Shown: one piece after another, positions 20,982 through 23,195 of the stretch | Layout of the letters: each line of letters begins with the position of its first letter | Position numbering within the stretch: position 1 is the stretch's first letter | From: Candidatus Gastranaerophilales bacterium | Lineage (GTDB): Bacteria > Cyanobacteriota > Vampirovibrionia > Gastranaerophilales > Gastranaerophilaceae | Assembly (NCBI GenBank): GCA_944324255.1 | Contig: CALUVM010000001.1 | Span: 62,001 to 126,000, forward strand | DNA length: 64,000 nucleotides | Reading direction: 5' to 3' | The notes under the pieces: generated by a model | Database searches by the model: none | The model's input: only the letters and a program-made list of their open reading frames with translations | What the model was told of the DNA's origin: nothing | Translations under genes and position numbers: made by a program

Positions 20982-21632
20982 TTATTCTTCTTCTCTTAGC
21001 ATAATTACTGTTGAATTTAGTTCATCAAGAAGGTATTGGAGCTGCTGATTAATGTTTTCCGGATTATAGATAGAACCGGATTCCTGGTATGCGAGATATC
21101 TCTGATATGTGACAGCTTCTTTTCTAAGCTGTGAAATTGATTTAACAAATCTGTTTATTTCTTCCAGTTTTCTGAAAGATTCATAATAACTTTCCGGCTG
21201 GCCTTCGTATTTTTTCATAAGACTATCAATATTCATGGCAAGAACATTGGCTCTTGTGACAAAAAGCTGGAGAGAACCATTTTCTTCGATACAATCGGCA
21301 AGTCGTTCTATCATCGGAATAATTTCATTTGCATCTGTTAAGTACTTTGAAGTTTTATCCTTTTTCTGAATAATATTTATGAAAGCAGGATTCTCTCTCG
21401 GCACAGGTTTAAGCTCTGAAGGGTTGTTGAATCCTTCCTGCGACTCAAAAATAGGGGTTGTAATCTTTTCTTCTTTCTTTTCAAATCTTTTATTCAGGTT
21501 TGGCAAGGTACCTGCATAACCCTTTCCTTGCAGTTCAGCTTCAAGAGCTTTATCTTTTTTATTCCACCACAGAAAAGCATAACAAGGGTTAACAAAAGAT
21601 ATTAAAATCAGAATCAAAATAAACTTTTTCAT
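20982..21632 (-). CDS. Exported protein of unknown function
   Basis: Not recognised. It has 216 residues with a signal peptide (MKKFILILILISFVNPCYA, about 1-19). The middle is a charged, low-complexity linker (~30-85) and the C-terminal half is helical, possibly coiled coil (ERLADCIEENGSLQLF, LRKEAVTYQRYLAYQ). It ends just before the rpsH promoter and is probably transcribed on its own. A periplasmic location is inferred from the signal peptide only. Confidence 0.75.
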   Translation of the reverse strand: MKKFILILILISFVNPCYAFLWWNKKDKALEAELQGKGYAGTLPNLNKRFEKKEEKITTPIFESQEGFNNPSELKPVPRENPAFINIIQKKDKTSKYLTDANEIIPMIERLADCIEENGSLQLFVTRANVLAMNIDSLMKKYEGQPESYYESFRKLEEINRFVKSISQLRKEAVTYQRYLAYQESGSIYNPENINQQLQYLLDELNSTVIMLREEE

Positions 21633-21697: not shown

Positions 21698-21726
21698 TTG
21701 ACAAAAAACAATAAAGCTTTTATACT
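21698..21726 (+). promoter_or_regulatory. Strong promoter of the Trp-Trp leader and membrane-protein gene
   Basis: Perfect TTGACA (21698-21703), a 17-base spacer and TATACT (21721-21726). It predicts RNA starting near 21733, leaving a leader of about 248 bases. Confidence 0.8.
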
Positions 21727-21735
21727 AATTACAGA

Positions 21736-21761
21736 CTTTGTTTCGATATATCGATACAAAG
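21736..21761 (+). promoter_or_regulatory. 26-bp near-perfect palindrome at the RNA 5' end
   Basis: CTTTGT-TTCGAT-ATATCG-ATACAAAG in parts, with one mismatched pair. It lies directly after the transcription start and just before AGGAGG. It could be a 5' stabilising hairpin or a repressor operator. Confidence 0.55.
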
Positions 21762-21772
21762 AGGAGGCCGAA

Positions 21773-21820
21773 TTGAGAAATAATACTCTTAAATTGAATA
21801 AATTCTGGTGGTGCAGCTAA
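21773..21820 (+). CDS. Putative Trp-Trp leader peptide (15 aa)
   Basis: TTG start, 5 bases after a perfect AGGAGG (21762-21767), encoding MRNNTLKLNKFWWCS and a TAA stop. Two adjacent tryptophans, a rare residue, fall just before the stop. The stop overlaps hairpin arm 1 (GCAGCT, 21813-21818), which pairs with arm 2 (AGCTGC, 21824-21829). Arm 2 can instead pair with arm 3: GCTGCCTG (21825-21832) with CAGGCAGC (21863-21870). Arm 3 can in turn pair with 21882-21895. This is the logic of attenuation by ribosome stalling, although no T-run follows, so translation of the next gene may be the target. Coding status is inferred. Confidence 0.55.
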   Translation: MRNNTLKLNKFWWCS

Positions 21821-21895
21821 TATAGCTGCCTGTTGTTTTGGAGATTTATTTTGTTTAAGAATCAGGCAGCAAAATCCTGAGGGATTTGTCTGCTG
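21813..21895 (+). promoter_or_regulatory. Mutually exclusive hairpins of a possible attenuator
   Basis: Arms 1 (21813-21818), 2 (21824-21832), 3 (21863-21871) and 4 (21882-21895) can form 1:2, 2:3 or 3:4. In addition TGTGAAA just downstream can pair with TTTCACA close to the ribosome site of the gene at 21981. Confidence 0.5.
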
Positions 21896-21980
21896 AAAAC
21901 TTGTGAAAAGTTAACGATTGTAAACAAACTCTTTCAGGTAAGTCAATTTTCAAGTTTCACAGGTTTTAAGGATTTGGACT

Positions 21981-23195
21981 ATGTCATCAAATAATAGCAA
22001 CATGATTAATAGATTACCAAAGGCAATGCAGCCGGCGGCAAGGTTCGTACGACATCAGGAACAGGCGGGCGGACTTTCGACATCCCGTTTTATACAGGAT
22101 GTTTCTACAAGCTTGCTTCCTAAAGTTGTATTTGCCCGCAGTCTTCCGGATTTAACCGAAACAACCTTCCTTGAGGTTTCTGAAGAAACACTTATGTATT
22201 TTGTTCCGGCAATTCTGGGTGAAAAAATTGCAAGAAAAATTTTTTCTGCAAAACTTCCGAATAATTTAAAGGCAGAAGTTGCAACACCTGCTGTTGAGAT
22301 GTTAAAGAAGAAAAATTCTAGAGAAATTATACCAGTTAAAGCTGCTATTGCACTAATGGCAATGGCAATTCCGCTTACGGAATTTACGCTTAACTATTTT
22401 AAAAATTTGATGACATTAAAAGTTTTTAAGAAGAGTGATTTTAAAAACATAGCATCTCTTGAAAAATCTGAGGAAGATATTGAGCACCAGAAGAAAGTTG
22501 AGAAGAGTGCAAAGAAACATATAGGGCTTGCAGCATCTCTCTATGCGGGCTGCCTAGCTCTGGCAGGTCTGGTAGTAACAAAGGGTAAAAATTCTAAGGC
22601 GCTGCAAAAGGTTTCAGAATTTGTCCTTGCTCCGGGGTCTGTATTATTTAAGAAAAATAACAAGGCAAAAGATTTTTTCAATAAATATTTTTCTATGGAC
22701 TTTAACAGTCAGAACGGTAAACTGGTGCTAAGCAAAGGACAGCTTACAACGAGTGTACTTATCGGGGGGCTTGGATATTTTGGTGCATCTGCCGACAGAG
22801 GGAAAGAAAATCTCAAAGAAACAGCAACAAGATTTCCGCTTGTAGGTTTGTATGTTATTACAGGTAGTGAGCTGGTTGAAAAAGGATTTAAAAAACTATT
22901 ACATAAAACCGGAAAATGCAAGGATTTAATAGGTAAAGATTTATCTGTTCCAAAATTTGATGAGCTTGGTGAATTAGCTAAAAAATTAGCAAAAGAACGA
23001 AAGACGAATGTTGATAATGAATATAAAACTTTAGCTAAACAAAAAATTATGATATCAGGTCTGCCGTATATCTTTTCAATCGGTGTGATGGGATTCTTTG
23101 TTGCAGGTATGACAAACTATTTTACAAGAAAACGCTATGAGAATGAACAAAAAGAAAAACTAAAGACACAGCAGGCAGTTTTAAATCAACTCTAG
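21981..23195 (+). CDS. Orphan membrane protein behind the Trp-Trp leader
   Basis: Not recognised. It has 404 residues, with likely membrane segments at about 115-135 (PVKAAIALMAMAIPLTEF), 183-202 (GLAASLYAGCLALAGLVV), 256-270 and 358-380 (SGLPYIFSIGVMGFFVAGM). It has no signal peptide and a basic C-terminus rich in Lys and Gln. AAGGA stands before the ATG. Its stop shares CTAG with the convergent ung stop. The elaborate leader says its synthesis is controlled, perhaps by tryptophan supply or translation stress, but the protein itself gives no functional clue. Confidence 0.75.
   Translation: MSSNNSNMINRLPKAMQPAARFVRHQEQAGGLSTSRFIQDVSTSLLPKVVFARSLPDLTETTFLEVSEETLMYFVPAILGEKIARKIFSAKLPNNLKAEVATPAVEMLKKKNSREIIPVKAAIALMAMAIPLTEFTLNYFKNLMTLKVFKKSDFKNIASLEKSEEDIEHQKKVEKSAKKHIGLAASLYAGCLALAGLVVTKGKNSKALQKVSEFVLAPGSVLFKKNNKAKDFFNKYFSMDFNSQNGKLVLSKGQLTTSVLIGGLGYFGASADRGKENLKETATRFPLVGLYVITGSELVEKGFKKLLHKTGKCKDLIGKDLSVPKFDELGELAKKLAKERKTNVDNEYKTLAKQKIMISGLPYIFSIGVMGFFVAGMTNYFTRKRYENEQKEKLKTQQAVLNQL

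Follow-up and report, generated by a model that had tools for sequence, protein, structure and literature searches.

Introduction

The E. coli trp operon carries a repressor layer over attenuation. In actinobacteria, trp and trpS are preceded by classical attenuators with UGG repeats and the cys leader peptides are conserved without an intrinsic terminator, and in the same survey methionine operons were not seen to have a conserved RNA regulatory structure upstream (PMC1262725). Links between an amino acid and the composition of proteins have also been described: amino-acid biosynthetic enzymes are poor in their own amino acid (low cognate bias) (PMC4209129), and the Down-Trp proteins of Chlamydia contain little Trp among proteins needed during starvation (PMC3937554).

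Here, we describe a leader located in a stretch of 64,000 nucleotides (G000:C1:62001-126000, hereafter the window) from a 99% complete genome of Gastranaerophilales, gut relatives of cyanobacteria. Computation and comparison support the leader ORF with its Trp codons, the alternative pairings, a predicted switch between 2:3 and 3:4, and the presence of a terminator in the majority of the relatives outside the genus. On these grounds, we consider it highly probable that the leader is a ribosome-mediated attenuator of the trp type that would raise the expression of a membrane protein when charged tRNA-Trp is short.

Results

Organization of the leader

Coordinates refer to the window and, apart from the palindrome, all the features of the leader and the regulated gene are on the + strand. 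The promoter P1 (21698 to 21726, TTGACA-17-TATACT), described as perfect in the initial annotation, is indeed present, although it is only near-perfect, with 11/12 consensus bases; a similar promoter precedes the leaders of most relatives at the same position. It is followed at the transcript start by a palindrome of 26 bp, CTTTGTTTCGATATATCGATACAAAG (21736 to 21761, 12/13 paired), a probable operator that could also form a 5' hairpin. Next come a Shine-Dalgarno sequence, AGGAGG (21762 to 21767), kept in L002, L003, L004, and L063, and a TTG-started ORF of 15 codons (21773 to 21820) encoding the peptide (M)RNNTLKLNKFWWCS*, which ends in FWWCS and includes the putatively regulatory Trp codons TGGTGG (21806 to 21811).

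The arms that had been annotated as able to pair 1:2, 2:3, or 3:4 were all located. Arm 1 (A; 21813 to 21819), which overlaps the stop codon as originally described, pairs with 21823 to 21829 in arm 2 (B; 21823 to 21832), and the latter can alternatively pair through 21825 to 21832 with 21863 to 21870. Arm 3 (C; 21863 to 21877) has either arm 2 or arm 4 (D; 21882 to 21893) as a partner, the 3:4 helix being 21866 to 21877/21882 to 21893. An outer arm within the LNK codons of the peptide (21787 to 21803) is 82% complementary to 21844 to 21860. Further downstream, arm 5 (E; 21924 to 21938) provides a fourth alternative pairing with 21876 to 21889, that is, arm 4 and its loop, and arm F (21899 to 21908) pairs with arm G (21955 to 21964) in a hairpin adjoining the ribosome site of the regulated gene. 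That gene (21981 to 23195) has its own Shine-Dalgarno sequence, AAGGA, at 21968 to 21972. The fold of the free leader was better than that of 200/200 shuffled sequences (z of -3.0), and a search of the genome with the Trp-leader pattern retrieved a single match, with no further copies.

The motif GTCAATTTTCAAGTTTCACAGGTTTTA (21942 to 21968) resembles a promoter-like motif preceding other orphan genes and may be a second promoter here. The general form, GTCAATTTTnnAnnTTCAnnnGTTTTA, often with TTTGTAACAA upstream, precedes other Lys-rich orphan genes of the genus (besides the window, L067 to L076, L131, L132, and L134) and looks like an uncharacterized class of promoter.

Conservation of the leader ORF

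Relatives of the regulated gene were found in 35/57 near genomes and in 93/240 genomes of the class. A short upstream ORF with tandem Trp (WW or WWW sharing the frame of a start codon, with a stop close by) was present at 84 of the 86 distinct Trp-type loci, compared to 13/1,720 (0.8%) shuffled sequences, and the two exceptions, L199 and L204, still have a short ORF in the leader, containing one Trp, so that the Trp codons first noticed in the window are conserved in related genomes. Peptide lengths range from 8 to 36 residues without loss of the frame, a good argument that the ORF is translated. On comparative grounds, the leader ORF and its arms are not of chance origin.

These ORFs also bear on the possibility that the leader is a ligand-binding riboswitch or a T-box in which the ORF is incidental. 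Such an element would be long and structured, as this leader is, but it needs no ORF, and those with WW recur at nearly all the loci. Besides, an Rfam search of the window leader and four related loci gave no match, and neither did the T-box covariance model with the window leader, making this explanation extremely improbable.

Within the genus, the consensus around the Trp codons is LN[RK]xWW[RC], strongly conserved and beyond what the codons alone need, as would be expected if the nascent LNKFWW caused stalling when free Trp (in the manner of TnaC) or a ribosome-targeting drug is sensed. However, beyond the genus only WW is shared and other families do not keep the motif (MINLQQNQKNNSWWWLANSASGFCWR), two relatives have only one Trp, and paralogues use runs of Met instead (see below). 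The conservation of LNK need not mean an effect of the peptide, since these codons sit in the outer pairing arm (21787 to 21803/21844 to 21860), which can account for it, and a product purged of Trp fits starvation rather than excess. An arrest peptide sensing drugs or Trp, put forward in the initial annotation, has thus become less likely, and we regard it as an unlikely alternative to trp-type attenuation.

Alternative pairings and predicted switch

Covariation was evaluated in an alignment of 17 long leaders, with scores compared to those of 500 shuffles. For 2:3, 97.7% of the positions were paired, four pairs had changed on both sides, and the score was reached by 0/500 shuffles; 1:2 (97.6% paired) was likewise reached by 0/500. 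The values were lower for 3:4 (92% paired, 7/500 shuffles) and for the fourth pairing (88% paired, 10/500), and we take the support for these two as moderate, since related sequences may exceed shuffles without any structure. Covariation therefore argues for the mutually exclusive 1:2, 2:3, and 3:4, clearly in the case of the first two and moderately for the third. The trp-attenuator logic proposed at the outset stands well with these data, as the small ORF is kept in the homologues and the arms vary with compensation, 1:2 and 2:3 exceeding all the shuffles and 3:4 more weakly.

Folds were also predicted for the same leaders with the ribosome at different positions. With the ribosome on WW, 2:3 had a probability of at least 0.54 in 16/17 leaders. 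In L002, the stalled fold still favors 3:4. With the ribosome at the stop codon, the outer 3:4 helix reached at least 0.80 in 14/17. In these computed folds, a ribosome on the Trp codons would thus favor 2:3, and one at the stop would favor 3:4. The fourth pairing was predicted on stalling in a few of the 17 leaders, belonging to some species only. Neither this pairing (21876 to 21889 with 21924 to 21938) nor the classical terminators of the relatives had figured in the initial annotation.

Terminators and readout

Outside the genus, most Trp loci have a canonical hairpin followed by a T-run 20 to 55 nucleotides before the gene, and so do nearly all the Met loci. The terminator arms outside the genus (e.g., CCTGTAC/GTACAGG) are repeated, making 1:2, 2:3, and 3:4 mutually exclusive. 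That most of the relatives beyond the genus have such terminators suggests that the ancestral device was ribosome-mediated transcription attenuation of the trp type. In the genus of the window the terminator has been mostly lost. No T-run, and hence no intrinsic terminator, follows 3:4 in the window leader, as had already been noticed, and the extra arms were discarded as an intrinsic terminator for lack of a T-run as well. Lacking this terminator, the window copy is a variant and not a strict transcription attenuator. Within the short-leader clade of the genus, a helix (CAAUAUAAAC/GUUUGUAUUG) reaches the GGAG of the gene, and one member, L027, has eight T residues after 3:4. Sister species with and without a terminator offer a view of an attenuator changing its readout.

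What replaced the terminator was approached through the predicted access to the ribosome site of the gene. The long-leader clade, to which the window belongs, does not conform well to either the terminator or the helix; access to AAGGA showed no consistent change between the stalled and stop states, and simple masking of this site was rejected as the readout. Control on translation had been suggested in the initial annotation, and we think it most likely that the readout in the genus is initiation at the ribosome site of the gene itself, which would be governed by the extra downstream pairings. Alternatively, for this step only, transcription might end at hairpin 1:2, or be ended by Rho once the stop codon has released the ribosome, with stalling on WW preventing it. 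A terminator scan flags 1:2 with CTGTTGTTTT, several members of the genus have comparable T-rich tracts behind 1:2, and the terminator-less leader peptide of mycobacterial cys operons has been read as possibly Rho dependent (PMC1262725). Nevertheless, the T-tract is weak and interrupted, it is missing in L006 and L014, and the covariation of the downstream pairings would lack a reason, so that we hold this route as possible but rather doubtful and favor control of initiation.

The 5' palindrome

The palindrome that had been reported at the 5' end of the transcript has a nearly invariant core, TTGTATCGATATATCGATACAA, which most genomes of the genus carry at this locus with 0 to 1 mismatch, generally as their sole site, and the palindrome overlaps the expected transcription start. 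It resembles GTTTCTATnnATAGAAAC, which (or a near form of it) follows the -10 box of trpR-trpB in the relatives G030, G006, and G032, and palindromes of intermediate form were found at L027 and L028. A DNA-binding protein at this site could be the only regulator, with the leader as a relic, and both the position of the palindrome and its likeness to the sequence ahead of trpR-trpB would agree with it. Yet outside the genus the palindrome is absent and the WW ORF is kept, and the search for TrpR (PF01371) in G000 was negative, which led us to reject TrpR as the binder there. Regulation by a repressor alone is therefore very unlikely, and a second layer is the more likely case; we infer that the palindrome is a putative operator for a repressor acting over attenuation.

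The regulated protein and its missing amino acids

The regulated gene encodes a Lys-rich protein of 404 amino acids that contains no Trp at all and has three to five segments of hydrophobic character. Comparison to Pfam, NCBIfam, PHROGs, and PDB sequences gave nothing above noise; that the target is not a trp gene had been observed early on. A function could not be drawn from structure either, as the AlphaFold model was poor (pLDDT of 63) and had no fold match.

The absence of Trp extends to the whole Trp type, whose 86 proteins have 3 Trp in 34,587 residues; the figure for the other proteins of the window is 0.68%. A sister clade of 30 paralogues from other genomes (L081, L079, L080, and L215 to L241) has leaders with runs of Met (e.g., MMMQMMMM and MQNNTMMMQMMMMQSL), nearly all with terminators. 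Only Trp and Met are encoded by one codon each. The Met-type products contain Trp at a normal level (94 in 13,370 residues, 0.70%) and are poor in Met (0.71%; the Trp type has 1.43% and the window 2.49%). Fisher tests gave P values of 3e-48 for Trp and 3e-11 for Met, although they treat residues as independent, which residues are not. In the protein tree, the leader types correspond to two clades and one change, with the distant homologues at class level left unclassified, and the safe statement is that there is one deep split with a consistent composition on each side.

Some of those distant homologues (L245 [G085:C11], L249, L253, and L258) have other leader peptides, such as the aromatic-rich MQLPANSVYFFSQPVSFYWSWYGFSMPPGCCLS and also MEFFTIFAIVMIMCPII..., and the majority of the distant homologues have strong terminators, suggesting that the family may respond to further amino acids. 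Another, more distant group of paralogues (L083, L084, and L263 to L267; ca. 27 to 30% identity where measured) is nearly devoid of Trp and shows no evident attenuator.

Relationship to tryptophan genes

A search for trpB in the window's 99% complete genome was negative. In G032, which has no copy of the regulated gene, trpR-trpB takes its place beside the same divergent neighbor, a gene encoding 216 amino acids (20982 to 21632 of the window, - strand) whose counterpart at L146 (5500 to 6147, + strand) is 70% identical. In G030, a second, partial copy of the regulated gene is convergent to trpR-trpB. A TrpR-like gene lies just upstream of trpB at L144, L145, L146, and L149 (G030, G006, G032, and G046), and no trpA was noticed beside trpB within the stretch read at these four loci, which suggests indole salvage. 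Of the approximately 57 family genomes with the gene, 12 also have trpB, which argues against a gene that merely replaces Trp synthesis; a strict link to the loss of trpB was not supported, leaving a loose association with Trp auxotrophy. Together, the missing trpB, the Trp-free product, and trpR-trpB in the place of the gene hint at a role of the protein related to Trp.

Discussion

Proposed mechanism

We propose that P1 transcribes a leader of ca. 250 nucleotides, on which a ribosome would initiate at AGGAGG/TTG. With ample Trp, the ribosome would get to the stop codon and arms 3 and 4 would pair. When Trp is scarce, it would stall at the two UGG codons and cover arm 1, allowing 2:3 to pair and break 3:4. 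In this scheme, starvation would turn the gene on, and a product purged of Trp could be made while Trp is lacking. The Met-sensing sister clade would do likewise for Met; to our knowledge, sensing of Met by a leader peptide would be new. The job of the protein is likely to be acquiring or sparing Trp and, judging from leader and composition, it is probably a starvation-induced membrane protein that acquires the sensed amino acid and avoids the same one in its own sequence. More tentatively, and with somewhat more doubt than confidence, the genes might encode a new kind of membrane protein in Vampirovibrionia for amino acid acquisition (or survival of starvation), in which paralogues specialize by amino acid (Trp, Met, and perhaps others in distant relatives), each with a leader of cognate codons and with the cognate residue lost or reduced in the product.

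The codons of the leader name the amino acid to which an orphan family would respond, and the composition of the product is independent support for it. An orphan family of uncultured gut bacteria thereby gains a testable function, either the acquisition of Trp or Met or survival without them. The pair of Trp and Met paralogues is also a natural experiment on cognate bias.

Comparison with known systems

The leader shares with the E. coli trp attenuator the tandem Trp codons near the stop of the leader peptide, the alternative pairings 1:2, 2:3, and 3:4, the stop codon within 1:2 and, in its relatives outside the genus, the terminator. It differs in its target, an uncharacterized membrane protein, in the lack of a terminator after 3:4, and in having extra downstream pairings and possibly a second promoter. 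The targets of the actinobacterial trp, trpS, and cys leaders are biosynthesis or tRNA-synthetase genes, unlike here (PMC1262725). As in TnaC, a short Trp-containing upstream ORF would control a downstream gene, but TnaC senses an excess of free Trp with a fixed peptide, whereas here the neighbors of WW vary and paralogues use Met. Finally, compared to the cognate bias of biosynthetic enzymes and to the Down-Trp proteins, the bias against Trp is nearly complete in this case, and it splits two paralogous clades according to the codons of their own leaders.
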